The notes below the pieces were generated by a model. The model had not been told where the DNA came from, did not search any database, and saw nothing but the letters and a program-made list of their open reading frames with translations. Shown piece by piece: positions 4,110 to 57,864 of a DNA stretch of 64,000 nucleotides (positions within the stretch are counted from its first letter, which is position 1; the number at the start of each line of letters is the position of its first letter). The translations under genes were made by a program, and so were the position numbers. This stretch comes from Pomacea canaliculata (taxonomy: Eukaryota > Mollusca > Gastropoda > Architaenioglossa > Ampullariidae). The DNA lies in assembly GCF_003073045.1 (NCBI RefSeq), contig NC_037595.1, positions 5,940,227 to 6,004,226 of the forward strand. Reading direction: 5' to 3'.

Positions 4110-4226
4110 CTTGTAGGTATTAACTCTATATGAGGGCTGGTTGTACTGCTGGTTATTCTTGCCTACAACACGTTGTCAGATATAAACCACCTACAACTGT
4201 TGCAAAGGTTGGTAATTTCACCTTAC

Positions 4227-4418
4227 CTGTAGTGTAGATAATCAGATAGTCGTCGTCACAACCAGATGTTCCAGCCTGCAGTTGAAAATAGAGAAATGTT
4301 ATACGGTAGCCATCTGTAGTGTTGATTATGTAAACACAGTCTTGATTAGGCGGGTACTTGCTAGGGTACAACGGCGATGAAAAGGAACCAGAGGGTGAAG
4401 TATAAAAGCCACCACAAG
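4227..4418 (-). CDS. CUB domain exon
   Basis: A 192-nt exon lies between a good acceptor (TTTGTCCCAG, AG at 4419-4420) and a good donor (ACTACAG then GTAAGG at 4221-4226). It encodes the first two thirds of an extracellular CUB domain. It shows the opening CGG, the SPLYPSKYPPNQDC strand (SP.YP..YP.n..C), and the C-D-D-DYLIIY segment where Cys and the calcium-binding Asp sit in many CUB domains. CUB domains occur in secreted or cell-surface proteins and bind proteins or carbohydrate. No signal-peptide exon was found upstream, so the 5' end of the gene is missing from my model. Exon phase is 1 on both sides, typical of shuffled extracellular modules. Confidence 0.75.
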
Positions 4419-4419
4419 C

Positions 4420-5139
4420 TGGGACAAACATATTTGAAGAAACAGTTCTTCAGTTGGTGGTAGTAAGTGAAGTTAATTTGTCATAAATGGTACCATTTAC
4501 CAATTAAAGCAAAAAGAGTTTGCCACGATTTGATTGGTCCACAGCCGTGAGATATTTAACTAGATCCCTGAGCCTATTCCGCGAGCACCAACTCATACCT
4601 CAGGTGTATGGGACTAGTGTCAGGGCGCATGCGCTGTGGAAACACGAGTGGACTGGTGTGAGAATGGCTAAAGTATGAAAGGATGGTGGACTGGCTTGAT
4701 CACACTGGCCAACCTTCCTATAACCCGCTTTGGAAATAATGGACGAAAGAGAACGGCGACAGAACCATCCACATAACCACTACATTTCTTCAACCTCCAT
4801 CCAGCAGCAACTGCTACAGTACACAAAGACATTGCTTACCTACCCAGTCACCCTGGGGTACTCGAGGTCATACTTTAAACTTTAAAAATCAGTTGAAGGC
4901 TGAAACAGTCGAAGTTGCAGGGGGAAGGTTTTAGCGTTATGCCAGTAGCTAAAGATAGAAGAGAATAAACACCTGGTCTGATGTGCACAATGACAATGAC
5001 AATTCTTTATTTACGAGGAGTAAAATAAGCAGCAGAGCTCTTTTTTCCATTTGGCCCTCGCCCTTTACAGGGAAGGAAATTAACCACATAAATGAAGTAA
5101 TTAAGCATTATAGAAAAACGTTGTAGTAAACATAAAGAA
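4420..5139. other. No gene seen upstream of the CUB exon
   Basis: This should contain the 5' part of the CUB gene, but I could not identify a signal-peptide exon or promoter. The right end grades into the 3' untranslated tail of a LINE remnant on the minus strand. Confidence 0.35.
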
Positions 5140-10196: not shown

Positions 10197-13100
10197 TCAG
10201 AAGGTGGAGGTCCTGGAGCGCCACTTCTTCTCAGCCAGGTTGCGCAGACTCTGGCGGATCTGGAGCTTGGCAGCCACGGCAGGCCGCTGCATGATCCATG
10301 ACAGCTTCTCGCGCTTGCGGTGCACGGTGCGCACCTGGCGGCACAGCGAGGCGAAGACCTCCTCAACGCTGTCCGGGTCCTCGCTGGCCGACACCTCGCG
10401 GTAGCCGCAGCCATGTTCCGCTGCCCACGGCGCGCACTCGTTGCCGGTGACGCGTCGCAGGTGGATGAGGTCGCACTTGTTGGCCGCCAGTGCTATGGGC
10501 AGGCGCTCGTCGCCGCGCGAGAGTCGCAGGTGTGTGACGAGCTCCTGTGCGCAGGACCAGCTGTCCGGATCCGTGACGGAGAAGACCAGGAGGAATCCAT
10601 CGGCCCACGTAACTGGATCATGTCGCAGTTCTCTCGCGGAGGACTGAAAGGAAAATGAGTTAACAGCAGCTTAAAAACAAGCAAATAGTGAATGCACCTT
10701 AACAAACTTCCTTTCTAGGAAAACAAATATTAAAAAAAAAATAAAATAAAAAGATAAGGCATAATGAAAGGGGTTTTAGACATGCCTCGCTGGAGTCGAA
10801 TACTGATTACATGACAAGTATCACTAAGGGTTTCCTTAATAAGTGGGGCATTAATTCTCTACCACTCATCCACATGTTCACACGAAGGCATGTCGTTTTA
10901 GGAATGCTTGGGTAAATGCGAGCGCCACTAATATTGCTGTTAATGCGGATTTCCTAAATCAGCGGGAGCCTCCATGCTTGACCAGATTCTTCTGGTAATA
11001 CTGACGGTATGGCTGATAGTTTTATTAAGTACGCGCCGGTTCAGTAATTTCATCCTTCTACTTCCGTGTCTGTGCTTTCTTATGATGATTGTTTTTACCA
11101 CTGATCCCTCAATAAAAGAATCATGCTCCTAAGAAGCATGTAAGAAAGCAATGTATGATATGCTCTTATAAATTTAAGGAACCAGTTTCACTTTTCGTCT
11201 CCTATGGACACTACATATGCGTGATAGGATGGATGGATCAGGCCGACAATCATGGTGATCTGGCGCTCTCTCCTTGGGGATGATTACAACGCCAGAAAGC
11301 TGCGGGCGGCAGTTTTATGGCCTTTGGTCGACTCATCGCTTATCTTTCCAATTATCCGCAAAGAATCGCATCATAAACCATTTAAGAACATCGCTCAAAA
11401 TGGCTCGGTCGTGTCTGCAGCCTGGCGCACTCGCCTCCAAGACTCAGCTTCTGGAATAGCGCCACAGCAGAAAGGACACCGCAGACAGGAGTCTCCCGTT
11501 CTTAGTGAATACGCTGGTCACCCAGTGCTAAAAGATTTTCTTTGAAATTCCCTTCGAAGAGCATACAAGATGTCAAGTATGGGTCTGACACGGACTAGTT
11601 CGTGACAATAATGATATATAATAATCACATATAGCAAACAATTGGTGTTTAAACAAATAAAACAGACTGAAATTATAACATAGCAAACCGGAAAGGTAGC
11701 ATATCTGAAATGTACAAGTAAAGAGAGCAAACATAATGAATTATAACAAACATTTTAGTGCGCTGACCAAACCCAAAGGAAGAGAAAATCTGTCAGTCGG
11801 TAAACACAGGTGTAAGTGTCACAAATAATAAATAATGAAGTGAGAACATTGTCAGGTACTCGCAGCGACAGGTTGCAGTACGTAAATTCAGAAGACAGAG
11901 TACTTAATATGTATATATATTTAGACGATAAGAAAATGGAAGAGAATGGATGTTTTGCAGACGGAAGGATAATTGGTAAAGCGCAACAATATACGCAGCG
12001 AGTAATCATTGGTCATTAGGTCCGTGTTGTCTTCATTCGCCACGACGGGAGTAACTGGCGAGCGCTGAAAGTTTGGGGATAGCAGTGTTTTTGGCAGAGC
12101 AATACCGCGGGGCTGGAGTAAACATCCATCATGCCGGTGTCACGCTCGACTGTTATTTGTGCTCTGCTCCGTAACGATTCGAAGAACTCTCTCTCTCTCA
12201 CACACACACACCTCTGAGCGTTTGTCTATGCTTGGAACATTTTGGGGGTTGTTTTGTGTACATGCAGGTGTAGTTTACGGGTCTATATGTATTTTGTACT
12301 CTCTCTGAGTGTGAGAAAGAGAAGGATAGACTGTGAAAAAAAAAAACAACAACTTTGCACCATTCGTGCTTGATCTATGTTGCTAAGCCTGGTGCAGAGA
12401 AGCGAGTATGTCGAGTTGTTTCCTTAGTTTAACGCGAGTTCCGCCAGCGTTAGGCTAGTGTCTTGCTTCGCTGAACTGCCGACTGTTGTACTTGGATGTT
12501 GTCCAGTTTGTACTAATACATTAAGCGCCAGTCTTTATGACCAAGAGGGTTAGGACAAGTATGTTACATCCTCATCATCGTCGTTGTCGTCGTCGTCGTC
12601 CTCCTCCTCATCATCATCATCATCGTCTTCTTCTGTCTCTTCCTTTTCAAATGGGCTATGCTCATTTTTTAGTATTGCATATCAGAAATTAGTGTCAGAA
12701 TGACTATTCAACAACAATGATAGTAGTAGACACATTAGACATTAAACACGTAAAACATAGCAACTGACAAAAAATATTAGAACAACAGTTCAACGCAATC
12801 CAACCCTGACGATGGTATCGTTGCTCCTATTGCAAATTGAAGTTTTTTGTTATGATTGTGGATGTCTTCAGCACTTCAGCATCTGCTCGTGAATCATGCC
12901 TTCCTGGCTTATTTCAAGTGCAGGTAGTTCAGCCGTTAATTTTTTTTCCCCAAGGCCGTGACATGAGCTTAAAAGAAAAGGTCGGCTTGTTTACTTGTTT
13001 AGGATTTTATGAGCTTCTTTTCGACCAAATTGCTGGCTCTTTCTCCTGTGTTGTCTTACCTCTCACGGCATCTTAAAGAAATCCCTAAATATTCTTTTAC

Positions 13101-16100
13101 AAGCATTTTCAAGAGCTTGTGACGTTAATTAAGAAGGCTAATCACTTATATTACTTATTTTAACATTTACACATCTTCCTTCATTTTTCCTTCCTAACTA
13201 ACCTTCTACCTTTATTTTATTCCTTCATTCTCCAGCTTTTTTGTCAGTAATTCTGTCTTAAAAGGCCTGCTCCGTTTATTTCACGCCTACAGATAGCGAC
13301 TTATTTAACCATCTTGCTTTCTATCCTATTTAAAATAATTAATAATGGTAGCCACAAAAAGTAAAAATAAAATGTGTGATATGTCTGACATGGTAGGTCA
13401 GGCTACAAGACGAGAGAAAGCATAAGGGTGGGTGGGAAGTGTTAGGGAAGCTTGGAGGTGCACGTAGCTTCGACTTACCCGGTGGTTGCGAGACTCGTAA
13501 ACAACTCCTTCTGAAACCATATTCTCCTTCTCTTCCCCACACCTTCCCCACATCAAACCCGTGGGAGGTCACCACACGACCCACAGAGTGTCTGTTATAG
13601 GAAGATAGGTCCATCACTCCAGAAATAAAAACAATAAACCGAGGAATAGGACCATGGGGTAGAGCGCGCTGTGTGTGTGTGGTTAGGTGGGAGGGTGGAG
13701 TGGAGTGGATTGACGGGGTAGCCTCGTGATCCATGCAGGCTGCTTGTGATAGTATCGAAAGCTGCCTTGTGCTGTTATCCACAGCTCCCATCAGCTGCGC
13801 GTTGGTGGTCCAGGATCTTCTTCTTCATCTTGAAGTTACTACCGGTTACCAGACAAATGACGTCACGAGGTCTTGAGGAGAGAATAACAGAACTTTCTCG
13901 GCATGCCCCCTCGGATCACACACTTTATCGCCAGGTCTGGAACCCTGATTGTTTTGAACGTTTTGATTATGATGTGAGGCAAGATGGGCTGTTGTTCCTT
14001 TCTTCTGTGTCGTGATCACCACCATCATCACTACTGCTATAAATCCTTAGGCCCACACCTGTATGAATGTTTTTTCCTGTTTGTGTCCTTCTCTTTCTTT
14101 GTGTGTGTTTGTGCGTGTATGTGTGTGTGTGTGTTAGAGAGAGAGTGTGTATATCTCTCTCCTTTTTGTTTGCTATGGGATCTTACATTAAACAAAGTCA
14201 ACAGAAACAGTCACAAGCGACATAAGCCACGTGACGGTAACTCACATGCCAGGCGCTGTCCATGATGTGCAGCACGACCTGCTTACCGTCAACCACCGCC
14301 GAATGCGTAAAAATGGCGTCTGAAACAGTGGTAAAAAGATATCTCAGAATGGCGTCTGAAACAGTGGTAAAAAGATACCTCAGAATGGCGTCTGAAACAG
14401 TGGTAAAAAAATATCTCAGAATGGCGTCTGAAACAGTGGTAAAAAAATATCTCAGAATGGCGTCTGAAACAGTGGTAAAAAAATATCTCAGAATGGCGTC
14501 TGAAACAGTGGTAAAAAAATATCTCAGAATGGCGTCTGAAACAGTGGTAAAAAGATATCTCAGAATGGCGTCTGAAACAGTGGTAAAAAAATATCTCAGA
14601 ATGGCGTTTTCAGTACTGGCGTGGAGAATATTTCAGAATGTCGTTTGCACAACATTGGTAAGGAAATATTCCGGGAATCTGATAGAAGAATAATGACTTC
14701 AGGGGTACACACAATGAGCCACCTGCATGCTTACTGACAGGATAAATGATTTGACTATGATAACTGACCGAAAATAAAGTTTAAACAAAGAAAACATTTT
14801 AAGCTACCGACTTCTGTGTTTGAAAAATAAAAAAATATGGCAAAAATTGAGGAGTGCTATTTGTATAACATGCAAATATCAGCTAAAGCATTTCCTGAAA
14901 ATTATAATGATTAGAGCAAAAACTGTTGTCTTCAGAGAGAAAATGAAATATTACTTAACACCTCTTTCATCTTTGAAAACACGTTCATCTTTGAAAACAC
15001 TAGCATTCAAATAAGATTTTAAGGTCTCTGTCGTTCTTTTTTCTTTCAATTATTTTTGCTGTGCTCATTTACTGAAATATTTGTCCATTTGTCTATTATA
15101 CTTGTTTTTTAAACTGTTATTATTGATGTTCTCTATTGTCCTCTAAAAGTTTCTGTGGTGTTTTTGTTTTTATTTGTTTGTTTTTATGCTCTTCAGGCAA
15201 ACACCATTTATATCAGTATAAAGGTTCAGTTTAAACCTTAGTCTGGGCTGTGTTTTATGTGACTCGGACGTGATGTGCAGACTGGACATAATGACATAAC
15301 TTGTGTGTTCGCAATTTTCTCTTTTGGGGCCTTAGTTATAAAACCTCAGTGTTAGCTGTGGACCGGAAGTGTTGCGGTGTAAATAGAAACAAGCGAAGGT
15401 GTAAGACATCGGCTGATAATCTAAAGGTCTCCGTCTGGCGTACGGTTTACCTGTAGAGTTGTAGATGTTGAGAGAAAGTACAGCATACCTAGGGCAACGG
15501 ATGTGCCTCTGATAGTTACATGCGCCTCGGTCTCCGATAGAAGAAATAGCTGAGGCACCCACGCCGTTACTTGACTGACCCCTAATTGTATCATGGTATA
15601 GCCCACCATTGCTAGTACACCTACTATATAACCGACAGGCTTGTAGATTTGTCAGTTCTCTTTGTGACCTGTCATTATTGCTCGACATAGACGTTGTCAG
15701 ACACTACACTGAAATACATGTTCTAGACAAGGTATTAGCACCTGAAACTTCTTCGATTTACATCTTTACATTGTTGGTCCTCACACTGCAGCGGTGCAGT
15801 GCTTTTGTCACGTTCATTAAAAGGATATTAAACTTTGTATTTGTTCTCCCTCAGCTTTCCTTTACAGCCTTAAGGAACTCTTTTGCTGGAGGGATGATAA
15901 TTTTCAAGATGGCGAAAACACACAAGAACTGTTGCACCAACCGCTTTTTTGCCAAGATGGCGTAAACACTTGAGGAGGACGTCTCCCCCCCTCCCCAATG
16001 TAGTTGTATATAGCCTGGTCACAGTAGAAACCCATAGCAAAATATATACTCAAATAAAGTTTGCCATCTTACTGCATTAGTTCTTTTGAACAGACCGTGC

Positions 16101-19100: not shown

Positions 19101-22100
19101 CCAACATCGTCAAACACGCTCGAGCAAAACAACCATCATCCCCCCTCCTCCGCCTTCCACGCATTTAACACAGGCTTGGCTTGATGGGCGCCAACGTTTT
19201 GCTCGAACTCGTGGATGAAGAAAGGAAGGGTAAAGTGCACTCTGAGTCAAATTAACAGGATGTTTCAACACGTCTGTTTGTGTTTTACCTTCATGAAAAG
19301 CAGCTTTATTTTTGCTGCTGCTAATGTTGATTTGCTTTGGTTAAAACCTCACAAGAATATGGCGTTTCTTTGGTTAATAATAATAAACAGCGTGTGATTT
19401 ATTTATCCCATGATCAAGTTCATTTAGGAAATGCTCTCAGCGCTTAAGACGAGGAGGAGACATGGACAGCATACGAAGGAAAAAAGGAGAAACAACATTG
19501 CAGACAAGTAATCAAATAAAAGACAAGCATAGAAGACGCAAAGAGGGATCAGGAAACAAACAACAAGGATGGAGAGTATCATAAGCCTGCCGAGGAAGAC
19601 AAGCAGTTGGAGAGTCAATAGACTATAATCACAACTATTGACAACTAATCATTAGACGAAAAATACGTGAAAAAAGAGGCTTAGAGAATGGACTAGCATT
19701 TTGTTGACTGGACGGCCATAAATGAGTAATGCTCATGAAACAGATGTATTTTTATTCACGTTCCAAGGATTCGATGGTGGGTAGGTATCGGATATGTCAG
19801 GGAAGGGAGTTCGATTGTTTCGTAGCACAGTAACTAAAAATACGGTGATCACATGGTGCTCTGAAAACAGGAATAGTGAGGGTACGGCCATGAGAGGAAG
19901 AGCGGAGTTGTCTGTCATTTTAGTAAGGGGAGAAAAGTTCAGAGAAATAGTCAGGGCAGGAGCCTGCAAAGAAATTAAAACATCACAGACAGTTTGTACT
20001 GAATGCGAAAACGGATAAGTAGCCAGTGCAGAAAACGAAGGAGAAGAGTACCATGGTCCCGTTTCCTTGCTCTAAGCGAAATTCTGTACTGTCTGTAAAT
20101 CATCCACAGAGTGGTTTTTTTCTGTTTTGCTGGTGTCTGCTTTGGAAATCTCTCACAATGTTATTTGTTGTTCTGTTTTGGTTAACAACTTCAAAAGATG
20201 ATAGTAATGTAAGTTGTATAATAGTAACCCAGTGGAACGGAACTAACCGATGGCAGACTGAAGATTGGAAAAGACTAAGAAACACGGATGATAGATTTGT
20301 GGCTATTAAAGAAGGTAAAAAAATGGAAGAAGAAGGACTCACCCATCTCTGGATCATAGTCTCCTATGAAACGCCGCGTGAGGTACCGAACAATGATTGC
20401 TGCAACAGGTAAACATAATTCAGCTGGTCATGCTGTGAACCGACCATCAACAGTTAAACATAAGTAAACATATGTGTACAAACCTTCAACAGATAAACAC
20501 AGGTAAACTGATATGTTAGCGTATCACATTTCAAAGATTGGTTTTAAATAGGCTGAGTTACAAGCATTTTTAAGCATCAAAAACCACTTTCTTTCTGTTT
20601 AATCTTTACTTTTGAGTTTAGACAAAAAACACGCAATAAAATGTTTTGTTATCTTTTCACTCATTGCTTCAAATAGAAGTAAATTTGTAAGGACTACCGA
20701 AGTGAAATGTTCTTTTTGCCATATCTCGAGGAGTGGGAGTATTTTTTTCTTTCTTGAGACTTCTTATCGGAGCTATATCTTAATGAAGTTAACCAAGTCA
20801 AAGTAGAATATGTTCATCTTTAAAGCTTATCTACAAGATGGGCGAGAACAAACAACTGCAGAATTTTTGAACGCAAAATCTTTGATGAGTACAGGGTAGT
20901 TTTCACTGAACTTCAATTCTAGAATTGTAATTATCTAGGCTTTCATCAAGCAACGTGCTGTTCAAGTAACATAATCTGTTCAGATACAAAGCATTAATAG
21001 ATTAGGCCGACAAGGTAGGGGTCTTTATTTTTTCCATGTTTACACGTCGTATGCCAAAGATTTTAAAAAGCAGCCAAAGCAACTCTTTATTTTAAAGACT
21101 TATATGATTATTTATCAAAAGATTAAGAAAGAAACACAGGTAAATGAGTTCCTTTAAAACCTGCTATTAATGTTTGTGATAAATTCCTTTCAGGTTAAAA
21201 GTGTTCTTGTTTACACCGAATCATCTTTATTCATCTCTGATTTCTGCCTACATAACAGACTCCACGATTACCTCACAAACAGTTTTTCTGTCAGTCTTTG
21301 AGTCAGATAACTTTTTTAAATCTCCTTGGGCACAAAGATAGAGAGAGAACAGAAGAGAGAGAGAAAATAAACAAAGTAAAGGAAGCACTTGCTTTAGCAT
21401 TCATTTATCTATTCATCTGTTCTATTACACAACGCTCGTTTATTCTGACTGCAAGATATTTGGTAATTCAGCAAGATGCATCAGGATGCAACTCAACTTG
21501 TCAGGATGATCTTGCACCTGGAGTGGGAGGGTGGGTGTGGAGTGACGCACGTCTTAATGTTTTTCAGCAATTCTAATTTTCTACCGAAGGCGAAGAAAGT
21601 TCAAAGACATTAGCGTGAACCTTGCAGTTCTGTTTTCTGGATATCAAAAATATCTAAATCATTTCGCCCGGCGTCAAAAAGCAGATCCCACAGGGAAACC
21701 ATCTACATGCTAAGAGCATTTGCATGCGGTCCACAAATGTACCCAGAGGGCAACCGATGCGGCTCTGCGGGCCATTAGATAATATACCAGAGTGATGAGG
21801 ACGAAGTCATTCAGGCTAAGGCAAAAGGCCTGTTACACGACCATCAGTGGAGGCTGGTCAGGTGAGTCTTGAAGTGCAACGCGTCACAGACACGAAGCGA
21901 CAGAACAATGACCTTTACCCTGTGTGTCAGGATCCGAACTTGACTGCCTCTGGTTGCTTTACATCTGAGCCATAGCTAAACCCCAAGTAACTGGAACCCT
22001 CGAAGACCAGACGAGAACCTTAAGATTACCTGCCGAGGTCTGCACCTGCTTTTCAGCTAGAGGACTCCATATTGGCTCCGGCTCCTAGATCACCTCCAGT

Positions 22101-38756: not shown

Positions 38757-38930
38757 AGAGGATATGTTTAAGTCATAAGAGAAAGTCGCTGTAATCCTAC
38801 CTGATTTTCCAACACCTTTAGATCCTAGCACAGCAATGTTGATTTCCCTGCCGCCTCCACCGCTGCCAATGCTGCTGCTGCTGCTGTTCGTGCTGCTGCC
38901 GTTGCTGTGTCGTCCATGACTGAAATCCAT
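10197..38930 (-). CDS. Ras-like small GTPase, RERG/RASL11 type
   Basis: A cytoplasmic GTP-binding switch protein of 235 residues. Coding exons (minus): 38930-38801, 20399-20343, 14319-14246, 10643-10197. Their lengths (130, 57, 74, 447) sum to 708 nt and all phases match. Residues 1-28 are a Ser/Gly-rich tail. G1 is GSKGVGKS (residues 36-43), followed by RYLTRRFIGDYDPEM at switch I. The third exon gives VVDGKQVVLHIMDSAWH, where Ras has DTAGQ. The last exon carries WADGFLLVFSVTD, G4 NKCD and G5 VSAS, and a basic tail ending SRTSTF with no CAAX box, as in RERG. Odd points: the switch I Thr (Ras T35) is Glu, and Gly60/Gln61 are Trp/His, so GTP hydrolysis and effector binding should differ from Ras. 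The first intron is 18.4 kb. The exon 3 acceptor sits in a repeat array. The exact subfamily is uncertain. Confidence 0.92.
10644..14245 (-). other. Third intron of the GTPase gene
   Basis: Bounded by the GTGAGT donor after exon 3 (14240-14245) and the TTTCCTTTCAG acceptor before exon 4. It holds a (cgt/tcc/atc) run at about 12570-12632 and a GT/AG-rich run at 14100-14155. I find no further coding exon inside it. Confidence 0.7.
14246..14319 (-). CDS. GTPase exon 3 (beta-3 and G3 region)
   Basis: Listed separately because its start is ambiguous. With the acceptor nearest the exon (AG at 14320-14321) the exon is 74 nt, phase 1 in and 0 out, and reads DAIFTHSAVVDG, then KQVVLHIMDSAWH. That aligns without gaps to the switch I to G3 interval of RERG/RASL11 proteins. 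Seven more copies of the same acceptor lie upstream at 36-nt steps. Confidence 0.88.
14313..14680 (-). repeat. 36-bp minisatellite made of a splice acceptor
   Basis: Eight near-identical 36-bp units run from 14313 to 14600, followed by about two diverged units to 14680. Read on the minus strand, each unit is a pyrimidine-rich tract, ACCACTGTTTCAG, then the first eight exon bases ACGCCATT. So each unit repeats the complete exon 3 acceptor of the GTPase gene. AG dinucleotides fall at plus positions 14320, 14356, 14392, 14428, 14464, 14500, 14536 and 14572. Variation between units is mostly at one or two positions in the T run. Units are a multiple of three and contain no stop in the exon frame. 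Each would add DAILRYLFTTVS (or the variant with RYFF). Confidence 0.93.
16514..16560. repeat. (CAAA)n microsatellite
   Basis: A run of caaa/aaac units with a few interruptions, inside the GTPase second intron. Confidence 0.9.
19430..19980. repeat. Dispersed repeat, copy 1
   Basis: It begins with gctctcagcgcttaagac, then a segment with atggacagcatacgaagga, and later a segment ending in ggtgggtaggtatcggatatg. Related stretches start near 40092 and near 53490. All three are degenerate, so this is an old interspersed repeat, probably from a retroelement. I cannot name the class. Confidence 0.55.
20343..20399 (-). CDS. GTPase exon 2 (57-nt switch I exon)
   Basis: This small exon lies between the acceptor TTTACCTGTTGCAG (AG at 20400-20401) and the donor GTGAGT. 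It encodes IIVRYLTRRFIGDYDPEM, preceded by an Ala shared with exon 1. The peptide matches the alpha-1 helix and switch I of RERG/RASL11-type GTPases. Phase is 1 on both sides, so skipping it would keep the frame but remove switch I. Confidence 0.9.
21868..21947 (+). repeat. 80-bp inverted repeat, left arm
   Basis: It starts cttgaagtgcaacgcgtcac and ends gatccgaacttgactgc. Its reverse complement recurs at 23632-23712 with only a few differences. Most likely these are two copies of one interspersed repeat in opposite orientation. Confidence 0.8.
23632..23712 (-). repeat. 80-bp inverted repeat, right arm
   Basis: The partner of 21868-21947, in opposite orientation about 1.7 kb away. No terminal repeats or target duplications join the two into a single transposon. 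Confidence 0.8.
26217..26409 (-). mobile_element. tRNA-derived SINE, copy 2
   Basis: On the minus strand the head reads GTAGTGTAGTGGTTAAAAC (A-box-like), then GGGTTCATATC (B box, 26340-26350) and TCTCGTCTCGGGA. The body continues into GGGGTTTTTCTCCTGG and GGTTTCCTCCCTGCTCC. The head and core match the copies at 9945 and 33493; this copy is the longest. Confidence 0.75.
31325..31460 (+). mobile_element. Possible tRNA-derived SINE of another type
   Basis: A tRNA-like order is visible: an A-box-like stretch (TAGCTTGGAGGTGAGTGC), the phrase gacttcgcatcgtgaggtcg and a B-box-like GGTCTGAGACTC, followed by a body with tttcccagggccacc. It is degenerate and no second copy is in the window. Confidence 0.45.
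32250..32640 (-). mobile_element. Decayed LINE open frame, C-terminal tail
   Basis: The minus strand shows a decayed reverse-transcriptase tail of a type common in invertebrates: a Cys-rich patch (STCAPDA), HILQ, a later LKERLWDTKV and a closing LETTAFFATEENI before a TGA. Frameshifts break the frame. The neighbouring frame with RRKYLIGT in 32139-32360 looks like switch I of a small GTPase but is downstream 3' sequence of this repeat. Confidence 0.5.
33493..33610 (+). mobile_element. tRNA-derived SINE, copy 3
   Basis: It is very similar to the copy at 9945: GGTTTGGTGGCGTAAG, cttgtcaccaa, then TGTCCTGGGTTCACATC with the B box at 33553-33563 and TCTCGTCTCGGG. The matching order of A-box, B-box and core supports one SINE family. 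Confidence 0.75.
35021..35132. repeat. Tandem duplication, 56-bp unit
   Basis: Two adjacent copies begin atgtgactaaaccggaa at 35021 and 35077 and share tttgtagtctcat and the gttttagtagt-like tail, with a few substitutions. It is in the first GTPase intron. Confidence 0.85.
36840..36966. repeat. Compound simple repeat
   Basis: A CT-rich and CA-rich run is followed by (gtga)n and (ga)n. It is low-complexity sequence in the first GTPase intron. Confidence 0.85.
38707..38756. repeat. (ATC)n microsatellite beside GTPase exon 1
   Basis: About 16 uninterrupted atc units, starting about 45 bases inside the first intron from the exon 1 donor. It is probably polymorphic in length. Confidence 0.95.
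38801..38930 (-). CDS. GTPase exon 1 (start codon and P-loop)
   Basis: The ATG at 38928-38930 opens a frame of 43 codons plus one base up to a GTAGGATT donor. The first 28 residues are Ser/Gly/Asn-rich, coded partly by an AGC-repeat tract, and are likely disordered. REINIAVLGSKGVGKS then forms beta-1 and the P-loop. No upstream in-frame ATG is obvious in the exon as seen, so this start is preferred. Confidence 0.9.
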
Positions 38931-43008: not shown

Positions 43009-46000
43009 TTAGGAACAGCTGTCATCCTCGCTGTCGTCCTTCAGCCGGTACGAGAGGCCGCTGTAGCACTTGGACGCCTTCACCAGGCTCGTCAGAATCG
43101 GAAACTCGCGACAGTCGTCGATGGCTTCGGCGACCTTGTCACAGCTTTTGGTTGGGTCCTTGGGTGGAGCTCCTTGACACATCCAGTCTATGCAGTTCTG
43201 CAGGAAGAAAAAAGCTTAACGTAAAAGGACTTATTATGATTATCCAGCAAAACAAAGAAGGAAATCAGAAATGTTAAAAATGGTAAAATAAATCTATAAT
43301 ATAACGATGCTGCTCACCAAAGTCATCAACAGAAAACTGATAAATAAAGTCAGGAATTTTGAGTATCACCTGTGCTTTATAAAACAAAATAAAACGTGTT
43401 AACGGTGTTAAATTCACGATCTAGCGCACTAAGCAGCGCGATATAGAGTTCAGCGAACAAACTGTTCCATTCATCATTAGACATTTTCATCCCTTTGAGA
43501 ATGTGTTTTTATAATTGTTTCCTGGATAGTAACAGTGTTATCATACAGCTGTACAGTGCGTGAAACTCACGGCAAAGATTTCGATGGGTGAGAAGGTGTA
43601 CTTGGTCAGACACTTGCGGTGACCTTTCTCACCCAGGATATTCCAGCACGCGGCCATGGTCTTTATTCTCGCTGCGTCGTCAGGGCAGAGGTTGACGAAC
43701 TTGTCCTGGCTGACTAAGCAGAAGTCTTCGATACTGTCACAAACACAAAGAAAACAATAAGAGAGAGAGAGAGCTGGCAAGCACAACGTCCAGTAAGTAT
43801 CCCCTTCTGTTCAAGGTGTGAGCGTGTTAGTCATCAGCATATGACAAAGTAGTGACAGAATAATTAATTGTCCGCAAGTTCTGAGTTGTGATTATAGTTA
43901 AGGATAGGATCTGTTACACGTGCATGACTGTCATTTTGTGACTCAGAGACTAAAGACTAGGATGGAGAATGTTTCCTTCACAAGAAGAAATTAATTCTCA
44001 CTTCTCATATTGAGCAATCTTAGGATTGCTGAACACGTCGAGCATAACAGTGGCTACATCGTCTGACCATTCGGTGAAGCCAGCAGTCCTGTCCTTCAGA
44101 ATGTTTTTGCTGGAATTTCCTGAAATTTCATGTAAACAAAACATTTTACACACACACACACACACACACTTTTAAGTACACAAAGGTTTCAGAGTCGATC
44201 TCTTGTGTGGAAATCTTTCTCACCACAGAGCTGCTCAGGATACGGAACTAGTGGAACGCTGTCATCATTGCAAGTGAAGGACCAGTCAGAAGACTTGAAT
44301 CTACTGCCTTTGAACTCATACAGACCAAAGCTGAATGACCAGGTATTTTGTTTCTCAGTGAAGATCACACCAAGGCCGTCATCTTCGTGAGCGTAGTTAA
44401 AGATGTCGGCGAACTTAAGATTTCCGTCTTTCACTACTACCGGCAGCAGAGTTGTTGACCCCTTGCACTGCAGCTCTGTAAGGTACTGTAAAAATAAAAT
44501 GACCAGCTGACTGGAACATGAACTCACGTCCAAGAATGACAAACCGCGTGAAAATATTCTCTCTTTCTCTTCTGTCTCTGTCTCTCTGTAGATACAGAGC
44601 TATCCAATAGCAATGTCGGATATACATGATGTATGCTTCTTCATCGCTAGCACAAGGAAAAAATAGTATAAAAGTAATAATACTAGTATTCAGTGTCTTT
44701 GATAATTCAAAGAAAACACGAAAAGCTAAGAAAGTCATTCTGGCTTCAGTAACTATTTATGCTACACATTGTTTCACTCACACCAATTTTCGGATCCTTA
44801 GTAAAGTTGAAAGTGGAGGAAAAAAATGTTTGAACTATCTGTCCATCTAATCAGTCTATTTACAGTAAAGAAAAAAAACGAATGCTATATCTTTTTTACT
44901 CAAATAATATTTGTCTTTGTTTTTATTTGAAAGACGCGGCCCACTTTTGCAAGCATCAGCCATGGATTGAAGGTCTCTTAAAGTGCTATTTTCAATTAAA
45001 TTTGCTAAAATAAAAAGTTAGAAAGACAGACAAACAGAGTCAGCAGTCTGAAAAACAAGAAGGTTGTTGTTCCTTACTTTGCCGGCGATCTTGTAGCTGG
45101 TGCGGAACTCGATGAACTTGCCGTCGGAGATCCTCTTGACACCCAACCAGGCCGTGGAAGAGAGGTAATCAACGCCGTTATAGGTGATACCTGGGGTGAC
45201 GTTGATGATGTAGTCACCGCAATGCTGGCCTTTGATGGCATTGTACTTGCAGGGCAGCTCCACCCTGGCTCTGTAGCCGTTAAACTGCTGCAGTCGGTTG
45301 CCGAACTCAGAGCGACACGTGAACGCTGCTCTCCCTGTGTGACGTAACATACAGATGTTCACATATTTTCATGGGTCACACTGCTGCTGTTGTTGCTATA
45401 ATTATTAGTAGTAATAGTAGTATTTTTATTTGCACTGTTTCTCTGTCTAGCTCTGTCTAAAATAGCTACTTTGTACTGAAATTATTTGCAAGTCTATGCC
45501 TAGGGCTAAATGTTCATTTTGATGTTCATGCTTCTAATTATTCTGCAACGTGCCATACTACTGCAATAAATACTCATCCTACTACTACTACTACTACAAT
45601 GATGACGAGAACTATTTCTGCTGGTGTTCTGATATTCTTTTCAAACTCTATACAAATGACCGTGTAGATTATGGTTGCATTATTGCTACAACGCACTTTA
45701 ATTTCCTATACTGGTTTATTGATTGGCGAGGTCATGTGAACTGTACAAGTGCAATTAATGCAAGTCAAGTATAAAATCATTATACATGGCAAAGAGAGTG
45801 GGAAAGGCCAAACATCTTCTCATGACCCTCCCCTTTTATTCTCAACACCCCCAAAAGTTGCTGCCAGGCACTGTGAGCTAGCGAGTAAATCGGAAAAACA
45901 AATGTAAAGAGAAAAGAAAAATGCTTGTGCATGACCATTAATAATTGAGTAAACCTGGTTGGGTGGAGTGAGTGAACAATAGCTTGAATTTTTCTGTGCA

Positions 46001-53932: not shown

Positions 53933-56900
53933 TTAGGGACAGCTGTCATCCTGGCTGTCGTCCTTCAGTCGGTACGAGAGGCCGCTGTAGCACTTGGACT
54001 CCTTCACCAGGCTCGTCAGACCCGGAAACTCGCGACAGTCGTCGATGGCTTCGGCGACCTTGTCACAGCTTTTGGTTGGGTCCTTGGCCGGAGCTCCTTG
54101 ACACATCCAGTCTATGCAGTTCTGCAAGTCAAGGAGGAGAGAACATGTAGTGATAACGCAGCAGCAGAAGAGAAGAATCAATAAATCTCAAATGTTGTTT
54201 GCAATACAAAATCAAATATAAGGATTTAAAACCTAGAGCGATGCTTTGAGATTGCTTATGAAATGTAGACGTATTCAGTGTTATTATGAAAAAATTGAAT
54301 TATTTGAAGCTTTTCTTGCGCACCTACAAACACGATATGGATAGAATTCCACGAACAGACCGTATCGTCAAAATCTTGTTCACTCAGCACAAGATTTTAA
54401 TTTCATCCCACGTGAATGTTTTGAGCAAGGACAGTCTCTATCGTACCACTACAGAGATGCGTGAAACTCACGGCAAAGATTTCGATGGGTGAGAAGGTGT
54501 ACTTGGTCAAACACTTCCGGTGACCTTTCTCACCCAGGATCTTCCAACATGCGGCGATGGTCTTTTGTCTCGCCGCATCGTCGGGACAGAGGTTGACGAG
54601 CTTGTCCTGGCTGACTTGGCAGAAATCTTCAATTCTGTCACATGCGCAAGGGAGACAATGAGAGGGAACTGGCAAAAACTTGAGGACCGGTAAGTGTCCT
54701 CTTCTACTCAGCGTGTGAACGTTAGTCTTTATCATATGAATACTTCTTTAGTTGGAGGTCTTTTTTTCTAACGACTCAATAGAGCTCCCAAAATGTAGGC
54801 AAATAACTCATTTATTTTTTGTTCTCGAAATACACGTCTACAAACGTTGTCATATACATAAAAAAAATCTCGACGCTGCGTTTGTACACAGATATTCGAA
54901 CCTAGGTCTCCCCCTGGTTTAGGCCTTGATAAAGTAAACAGATCCGTGGACCACCGGACATCTGTGTTGTTGACCTTGAGCTGTTTGTAGTCACATATCT
55001 CTAGAATGGAATGGGCATTTTCTTCATGACAGAGCAGTCACAAAATAAATAATATTTAACACTAATAGCAGTTCTCCTATGTTTAAAGTGACCCAGTTGT
55101 GGGTTGAGATTGTATTAAAAGCTAGGATCTAACACTTACATAACGTCCTCCTAACTGTAACTCTTGTCATTCTGCCACTCATAGACTAACGAATGGGATG
55201 GAGAATACTTCCTTCACGAAGAGGAATTAATTCTTACTTCTCGTATTGGGTAATCACGGGATTACTGAACACGTCGTATGTAATAGTGGCTTCGTCTTCT
55301 GACCACTGGGTAAAGCTGGCAGTCCTGTCCTTCAGAATGCTTTTGGTTGTATTTCCTGAAATTTAATGAAAACATTTAAAACAGAGAAATCCTAAACTAT
55401 GTGTTCCTGCTTTTGAATGTTGATGATGATGCTATGTGTTCTGACTCTGACAAAATCCTGCAGAAGGCAAAGCACATTACACCGTCGTATTTGTTAATGT
55501 GAAAAAAATTAAAGTATTGTCTTTTTAAAAAGAGAAATATGTAATCTACCTGTTTTCAACACGGCATTTTAATAGCAAAAATGTTGACGTAATGTTGTAT
55601 TTGTTATATATAGGTGTTCAACTCAGTTATAACAAAACATTCTCAATGGCTTTAAAGAATCAAGCATATCGGGCAATGACCTCGCTCCTACGTATAGTCA
55701 AGGCAATTACTTCCTGCAGATGTATAGTAGGATTTATTTAATAAGAGGATTTCCCTATTTTATTGTAAAGTATGGGGGATTTAGTTCTTGCAACATTACT
55801 ACAAAATTACAACTATTATAACATAAGTATATTTTCAGACGAAGAATGAAGCCACCCAACTCAGCGGTGTTTGATAGGTAGGTAGGTTTCCACTAGATGT
55901 CATTGTAAAAATTAAGATGGTCTGTTTTTAGTATACATTATTTAATCCTTCTAATGTACACTCTTTACTGCTTACTAGTTTATTTACATAGTCTAAGTGA
56001 CTAATGGAACCCATTCGAATTATGTTATTGCATTTAAAGATTTATCCGAATAGTTTAGGGCTGTCATGGGTTTGAGACCAACAAAATATATAAAAAATTT
56101 CCCCAACTGATCAGTAGATGTTTATTTGACAAATATGTCTAAAAGTGGTTTTCTAAACTGTATAAGATATACATGTATTGGAATTACGAAATGCATAAAT
56201 CATCGATTTCTTGTGAAAAAAAATGTGGAAATCTTTCTCACCACAGAGCTGCTCGGGATACGGAACTAGTGGAACGCTGTCATCATTGCAAGTGAAGGAC
56301 CAGTCTGAAGACTTGAATCTACTGCCTTTGAACTCATACAGACCAAAGCTGAATGACCAGGTATTTTGTTTCTCAGTGAAGATCACACCAAGGAGGTCAT
56401 CTTCGGGAGTGTAGTTAAAGATGTCGGTGAACTCTAGATCGCCGTCCTTCTTCACTATCGGCAGCAGGGTTGTTGAGCCCTCACACTGCAGTTCTGTCAG
56501 GTACTGTGAAAAACAAAAAATAGGACGATGTGAGGGGGTCACAACTCACGTCCAAGCACAACAAACCATGTACACGAGTAAATATTCTTTCTTCCTCTCT
56601 GCTTGTTCACTGGCGACATCCACGTGCTGTACGCTTCTTTATTCCTTCCGCAATGGAAAAAAAACCCACACACACACACAAAAATTCACATAAAGGACGA
56701 AATTCACTCTGTTCAAGATTTTTTTCACTTCTCACCACGTCAATACTTTTGGATGTTTTATATAAGTTGGTGAAGATATAAATAGCTAAAGCCATGTTTG
56801 AATAATCTAGTCATCTGATAAGTTCGTTATTTTTAATTTAATTCACACTGCACATTTAAAAAATAATCTTTTCCGGATTTTTTTTTTCTTTGTATTGTGT

Positions 56901-57864
56901 TAGATGTTTTCCTGGGCCATTTTTGCAAACGTCCTAGCTGCATATTGGAAGTTTCTTAACCTTCATAAAATATTTAAAACTTTTTTAATTTTTTTAATTT
57001 ACTAAAACAAGACAGACAGACAGAAAGAGCGAGCAGTTTACAAGACATGAAACTTGTTGTTCCTTACTTTGCCGGCGATCTTGTAGCTGGTGCGGAACTC
57101 AATGAACTTGCCGTCGGAGATCCTCTTGACACCCAACCAGGCCGTGGCAGAAAGGTAATCAACGCCGTTATAGGTGATACCTGGGGTGACGTTGATGATG
57201 TAGTCACCGCATTGCTGGCCTTTGATAGCATTGTACTTGCAGGGCAGCTCCACCCTGGCTCTGTAGTCGTTAAACTGCACCAGGCGGTTGCCGAACTCGG
57301 AGCGACACGTGAACGCCGCTCTCCCTGTGTGACGTAACACACAAGCATGTCACAGGTATACATGCCATACATTATTCCTGTTGTTGTTATAACTATTATG
57401 AGTAGCTGTAGTATTATTTCTACTCGTGCTACTGCTACTAAGTAGGTACAATGTATTGAAATTATTTGCAAACTCGACGCCAAGATCCAACTACTCGTTC
57501 CAAGTGTAATCATACACGGCGAAAAAAGTCTTTCCATGACCCTTCGCTTTTATTCTCACTACCGCCAACAGTTGCTGCTAAACAGCTAACGGGAGATCGG
57601 AGAATTAGAAATATAAAAAGAAAAGAAAAATACATGTTCATGACCAATAACAAGTGTCGGCCTCTTGGGTGGGAGAATTGAGTTAACGATAGCTTGACTC
57701 TTCCGATGCTTGAATCCCTGGCTTTACGTCACCCTTGTAAAAGTAAGGTGAGTATGGACAAGTTTCCCTTCCCCCTTCCAACATACATACACTCACGCTG
57801 CTTTCTACTCACCACCGACAAAAGCCACTGAGGCTAGAAAAAGAAGAATAAAGCCCCCTCTCAT
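53933..57864 (-). CDS. Secreted VWFD/C8-like protein, copy B
   Basis: Coding exons (minus): 57864-57813, 57324-57068, 56503-56242, 55355-55238, 54634-54472, 54121-53933. Exon lengths are identical to copy A, total 1041 nt and 346 residues, with no break. The signal peptide equals that of A. The first VWFD-like exon differs at only a few residues (NRLVQFNDY against NRLQQFNGY), and the second half of the next exon (WSFSFGLYEFKGSRFKSSDW) is identical. The short fourth coding exon is much more divergent (TASFTQWSEDEATITYDVF against TAGFTEWSDDVATVMLDVF). It ends KDDSQDDSCP. Cys positions are the same as in A, so the fold should be kept. N-glycosylation sites remain (NVT, GNTTK). Introns align poorly with A outside the splice sites. 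Confidence 0.92.

Follow-up and report, generated by a model that had tools for sequence, protein, structure and literature searches.

Eight tandem copies of a predicted 3' splice site form a minisatellite at exon 3 of a RERG-like gene in Pomacea canaliculata

Iterated splice sites have been described in several forms. At NAGNAG and other tandem acceptors, alternative AGs lie a few bases apart and the reading frame is kept. On the donor side, the human interferon-induced transcript 6-16 (IFI6) reportedly carries a minisatellite giving multiple splice donors, a case ascribed to Turri, Cuin and Porter in 1995. The closest described systems are the amphioxus mirages, whose units measure 10-160 bp (PMC3087553). 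The same report gives 6 and 3 units for BflGb6 haplotypes, proposes boundary-spanning minisatellites as raw material for intron gain, and presents Adh3 data which, together with the authors' RT-PCR, suggest that regular splicing is undisturbed by mirages (PMC3087553). A further report states that the Adh and TnC mirages yield no aberrant mRNAs and that PGBD5 has similar duplications (PMC3902484). In the human CBS variant c.844_845ins68, the last 52 intron bases and the first 16 exon bases are duplicated and the upstream copy is spliced out (PMC7490669). A preliminary description of the locus analyzed here had known of no described case of this kind, a view overtaken by the amphioxus mirages (globin, Adh3 and TnC), PGBD5 and the two-copy CBS acceptor duplication. 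Within the open-licence literature, no description of boundary-spanning minisatellites outside cephalochordates was found.

The locus lies in a window of 64,000 nt from Pomacea canaliculata (i.e., the whole stretch of DNA that was analyzed), in a predicted gene with four coding exons on the minus strand: exon 1 (coding part at 38801..38930, with the P-loop GSKGVGKS and the donor GTAGGA), exon 2 (20343..20399, encoding IIVRYLTRRFIGDYDPEM and ending in phase 1 at the donor GTGAGT), exon 3 proper (14246..14319, 74 nt, phase 1 in and phase 0 out, encoding DAIFTHSAVVDGKQVVLHIMDSAWH, with the donor GTGAGT at 14240..14245) and exon 4 (10197..10643, coding up to the stop codon). The phases at the three joints (1, 1 and 0) match. 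When joined, exons 2-4 give a Pfam Ras match at 3.1e-22, and the best PDB match by sequence is RERG (2ATV, 1.7e-24), with no gap over the joint of exons 2 and 3. Judged by these matches, the gene is a RERG-like member of the Ras superfamily.

In what we take to be the Ras numbering, the protein has Lys12, Glu35, Trp60 and His61, and so departs from the presumed canonical G-box residues (Gly12, Thr35, DxxG with Gly60, and Gln61); GKS of the P-loop and NKxD are kept. Because of these four residues, the protein probably does not work as an ordinary GTPase switch. Altered DxxG motifs are also present in the RERG-like paralogs L030, L038 and L039 (DCSPG, DTASK and DTCTK), so that degeneracy of the G3 box may be widespread in the RERG-like subfamily of P. 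canaliculata. Elsewhere in the window, the minus strand encodes a CUB domain at 4153-4449 (Pfam 3.5e-14). Moreover, the stretches 44189-45368 and 56153-57337 are similar, with the repeated peptide YLTELQC.GSTTLLP..., as though an unnamed gene had been duplicated locally; at E 0.1, Pfam had no match to the frames 44189-44599, 45018-45368 and 56153-56545. The window gave no hits in Rfam and tRNA scans.

Repeat detection and pairwise unit comparison delimited an array of eight units of 36 bp each on the minus strand at 14607-14320, which TRF reported as 36 bp x 8.2 with 98% matches at 14312-14607. Each unit has the make-up of a 3' splice site: its first eight bases are exon-like, being a copy of the exon 3 start, and the 28 intron bases that follow contain CTGAG, a pyrimidine tract and TTTCAG. 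In all eight units TTTCAG is the closing motif, and the following 36-mer, or exon 3, opens with ACGCCATT. The tandem, minisatellite-like units thus run across the intron-exon boundary, and exon 3 opens with the final copy of the eight repeated exon bases. The identification of the unit as the acceptor of a small-GTPase exon, made in the preliminary description, was confirmed, as was its nature as a minisatellite. The final AG of the array is at 14321-14320, with unique exon 3 sequence directly after it; the second AG present in each unit (CTGAG) is out of frame. Among the matches listed in a search of the genome (24 contigs, 440,159,624 bases), the array was found at a single place.

The array is homogenized inside and divergent at its edge. 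Pairwise identity among the eight units was 94-100%, and only two sites vary: a pyrimidine-tract position that is C in units 2, 7 and 8 and T in the others, and an A/G site in unit 7. Decayed unit copies were found on the minus strand at approximately 14620-14692 by gapped alignment to the unit, in which 14700-14608 scored 56, while the other minus-strand stretches of the window (n = 1048) averaged 16.8 and reached 40 at most. In this alignment the acceptor AG is gone from two decayed units (CAA, and TGAAA as read from the sequence), and a partial third one retains an out-of-frame AG at 14679 (TATCAG). Such decayed copies were seen on the intron side of the array only.

Several lines of evidence bear on which AG is authentic. 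The exon-proximal AG (14320..14321, minus strand) is very probably the ancestral and authentic acceptor, because exon 3 is 74 nt long in two of three paralogs, with matching phases. A protein search for Ras-like loci returned 16 matches, four of which are the window gene itself (L022, L024, L028 and L036), and three RERG-like paralogs yielded an exon 3: it measures 74 nt in L039, 74 nt in L038 and 77 nt in L030, the latter two lengths being counted from the printed sequence. The window exon reaches 74 nt, with phases as in the paralogs, only via the AG at 14321-14320, and the RERG alignment is gap-free with this acceptor. The insertion point of any additional unit adjoins residue 63 (presumably Ras 37), where switch I ends and beta-2 begins, and not, as previously proposed, between switch I and beta-3. 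Among six other Ras-superfamily loci aligned across residue 63 by tblastn (L023, L025, L029, L031, L032 and L035; E 0.005 or better), five were gap-free nearby and L031 had a one-residue gap; the L027 match, at chance level (E 8.8), was left out.

Acceptor strength was scored with a simple frequency matrix, which gave 5.75 for the array AGs, 7.36 for the exon 2 acceptor and 9.93 for the exon 4 acceptor, with 23 of the 346 AGs of intron 2 outscoring the array AGs. By the same matrix the AG at 14679, just upstream of the array, scored 8.42, above the array AGs; splicing there would break the reading frame. Such a linear model cannot rank the eight acceptors, because their local sequences are nearly the same, and under scanning logic an upstream AG could win. 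Use of mainly or only the last acceptor, which in its strict form the preliminary description had itself named as an alternative, is nevertheless favoured over upstream use, because the exon length of the paralogs, the amphioxus and CBS precedents, and predicted RNA folding all point to it.

A donor-side counterpart was found in paralog L039 (L039:308-634; C6, about 13273310-13273636), where a 49-bp x 6.6 array lies downstream of exon 3 and the donor ACAAAG/GTAATG recurs. It comprises eight tandem exon-3 donors, the authentic one included, 49 or 37 nt apart and in two cases with one exon base changed; judged by length only, two of the seven extra donors would extend exon 3 by a number of bases divisible by three and the other five are out of frame. 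Thus both acceptor and donor boundaries are affected in one genome. In another RERG-like paralog, a 31-bp x 7.2 array (L033:1258-1477) stops three bases before the acceptor AG (TGTAG), which is not inside the array, and at L059:374-592 a 110-bp stretch spanning the donor of a Ras-family exon is present in two copies. In a sample of Ras-family exons (20 of 153 Pfam Ras matches, hand-picked for shorter exons and taken with 300 flanking bases per side), three of 20 had some array near a boundary and one (L059) had it across the donor, a survey too small for a rate. The RERG-like paralogs were chosen because of the window gene. As background, nine arrays (period 20-120, at least three copies) cover 1481 of 200,000 bases in 20 arbitrary 10-kb stretches.

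The reading that we consider quite probable, given the sequence comparisons and the folding model, is a mirage-type minisatellite of which the last AG is mainly or only used and the upstream copies are spliced out. We infer how the array expanded, that splicing predominantly uses the last AG and that a hairpin may have a masking role. Tandem duplication would first have affected the 3' end of intron 2 together with the eight bases that open exon 3; slippage or unequal exchange would then have expanded and homogenized the units, with eight young copies as the outcome and some decayed ones left further upstream. The exon-proximal AG at 14321-14320 would be the one that the spliceosome mainly or only takes, producing the ancestral 74-nt exon, and the upstream unit copies would leave with the intron. 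On top of this, the array may mask itself: each upstream acceptor could fold onto CUGAGAUA of the next unit, so that a stem of 7 or 9 bp would enclose its AG; the last acceptor would stay free, the exon sequence after it being unable to pair.

The folding predictions are as follows. Seven junction hairpins of 24 nt each, one every 36 nt, are predicted on the minus strand at 14340..14579 (from 14579-14556 to 14363-14340), where UGUUUCAGA of one unit pairs with UCUGAGAUA of the next (UGUUUCAGA-CGCCAU-UCUGAGAUA). The predicted energy is -7.6 kcal/mol at six junctions and -5.0 kcal/mol (7 bp) at the junction with the A/G variant. At the last acceptor, which has exon sequence there instead of another unit, it is 0.0. 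The asymmetry follows because tandem duplication leaves every copy except the last in front of another copy. The mean unpaired probability of the AG ranged from 0.01 to 0.22 across the seven upstream sites and from 0.42 to 0.48 for the last one (four windows, 50-200 nt), a post hoc comparison which counts once, since the units are copies. Among randomized units, -7.6 was reached by 0.25% when the middle was shuffled (2000 trials), by 0.25% when the first eight bases of the middle were shuffled (2000 trials) and by 0.375% with random 8-mers (4000 trials).

On the other hand, masking alone does not explain the choice of the last AG, because the AG at 14679 is both less paired (0.25-0.30 unpaired, versus 0.02-0.11 at the seven upstream array AGs in the same folding run) and higher-scoring. 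Nor does pairing by itself exclude acceptor use, because the exon 2 acceptor, presumably constitutive, is also mostly paired in the prediction (0.12-0.20 unpaired); the exon 4 acceptor is less so (0.37-0.39). Folding of the L039 donor array gave no consistent difference between authentic and extra donors, and a general masking rule for mirages was rejected, as that array has no comparable masking. Two further candidates were also rejected: a temperature switch, as the modelled pairing of the AGs was nearly constant from 15 to 55 C, and a branch site at TTTAC, 48 nt before the last AG, as its A is predicted to be paired (0.17 unpaired). Thus, on the folding model, self-masking is a doubtful candidate for the reason why the last AG is chosen, and plain exon definition, which needs no hairpin, is at least as likely to be the sole cause.

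The most probable of the alternatives, which overlaps with the mirage-type reading and which we hold to be somewhat less than evenly probable, is a neutral minisatellite, of which the last AG is chosen by exon definition, as the acceptor nearest to the donor of a 74-nt exon, and the hairpin is coincidental. A short exon flanked by introns of about 6 kb and 3.6 kb fits the principle of exon definition, and the share of minisatellite sequence in the 200,000 sampled bases suggests that some overlaps with acceptors should arise by chance. The L039 array, which does without masking, and the less-paired AG at 14679, which masking would not avoid, fit it as well. It is less at ease with the rarity of the hairpin energy among randomized units (0.25-0.375%) and with the absence of the hairpin from exactly the proposed authentic site.

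A second alternative takes the array as a generator of isoforms, in which several of the eight acceptors would be used, inserting one to seven copies of DAILRY(F/L)FTTVS after switch I, with a copy number varying between individuals. Its attraction lies in the reading frame. The eight AGs stand in near-identical contexts at 36-nt steps, a length divisible by three, and when spliced to exons 1, 2 and 4 the frame is open from all eight, as the preliminary description had stated; the product grows by 12 residues per extra unit, from 235 aa with the last AG to 319 aa with the first, through seven inserted peptide units (DAILRYLFTTVS in three and DAILRYFFTTVS in four). Upstream, the frame closes at 14633, within the first decayed unit, and is thus open exactly across the AG-bearing units. 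However, 58% of shuffled units are open in a given frame, and, multiplied by one third for a length divisible by three, this puts the chance of frame preservation near 0.2, which is not evidence of design. An in-frame design of the array was rejected on this ground and because five of the seven extra donors of L039 are out of frame, so that such arrays are not maintained for their frame. Although hydrophobic (GRAVY 0.70-0.78), the inserted peptide lies within the range of translated unit shuffles (0.32 +/- 0.58). Moreover, the upstream AGs are predicted to be paired, and known mirages are reported to be without aberrant mRNA (PMC3087553, PMC3902484). Functional isoforms of a signalling switch, as first suggested, thus find little favour against paralog exon length, the amphioxus and CBS precedents, RNA folding and the non-canonical G-box residues, and we regard the isoform generator as unlikely.

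Similarly improbable, in our view, is the fuller version of self-masking suggested by the folding model, in which unit pairing would hide all AGs but the last, the minisatellite could grow harmlessly, and a factor opening the stems would release longer in-frame isoforms of a non-canonical Ras protein.

It is very unlikely that the copy number of the array was invented or altered by the assembler. One amphioxus mirage was aberrantly assembled in the draft genome, according to a supplement legend (PMC3087553), but the PacBio reads behind the published P. canaliculata assembly averaged 10.1 kb (PMC6129957), far above 300 bp; in addition, two sites vary among the units, and the array has decayed copies next to it. 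An overlapping plus-strand gene (frame 14241-14693, with repeated MASETVVKKYLR), for which the array would be coding or regulatory, is hardly credible and was rejected: in its favour, an open frame of 150 codons runs on that strand, with a less hydrophobic peptide (GRAVY -0.22), but a Pfam search of the frame gave no family above the cut-off, 55% of shuffled units have at least two of three frames open, and the array ends at the minus-strand exon boundary plus eight bases.

The mirage-type reading carries some wider implications. That one snail gene family has an acceptor-side example in one paralog and a donor-side example in another suggests a wider phenomenon. The arrays are also a natural setting in which to ask how the spliceosome selects among eight near-identical acceptors, for which there is a specific hairpin model open to mutational testing.

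Compared with known systems, the window array is, on its sequence features, of the mirage kind already described. Like the mirages of amphioxus (Adh3, the globins BflGb6 and BflGb9, and TnC), which involve acceptors or donors, it consists of tandem units across an exon-intron boundary, with splice signals in many copies, homogenized inside and divergent at the edges. It differs in its host, a mollusc, in its 36-bp in-frame unit and in its predicted junction hairpin; furthermore, length polymorphism and RNA outcome have been reported for the amphioxus mirages, whereas the window array is known from the sequence of one haploid assembly. CBS c.844_845ins68 likewise duplicates a 3' splice site, but as an insertion variant with two copies of a 68-bp unit. 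In the IFI6 minisatellite a splice site is also iterated, yet it is a donor and not an acceptor. NAGNAG acceptors share the preserved frame, their AGs being a few bases apart, whereas here whole acceptors stand 36 nt apart. What is new is a case in a mollusc, a donor-side counterpart in a paralog and the predicted hairpin at the unit junctions.
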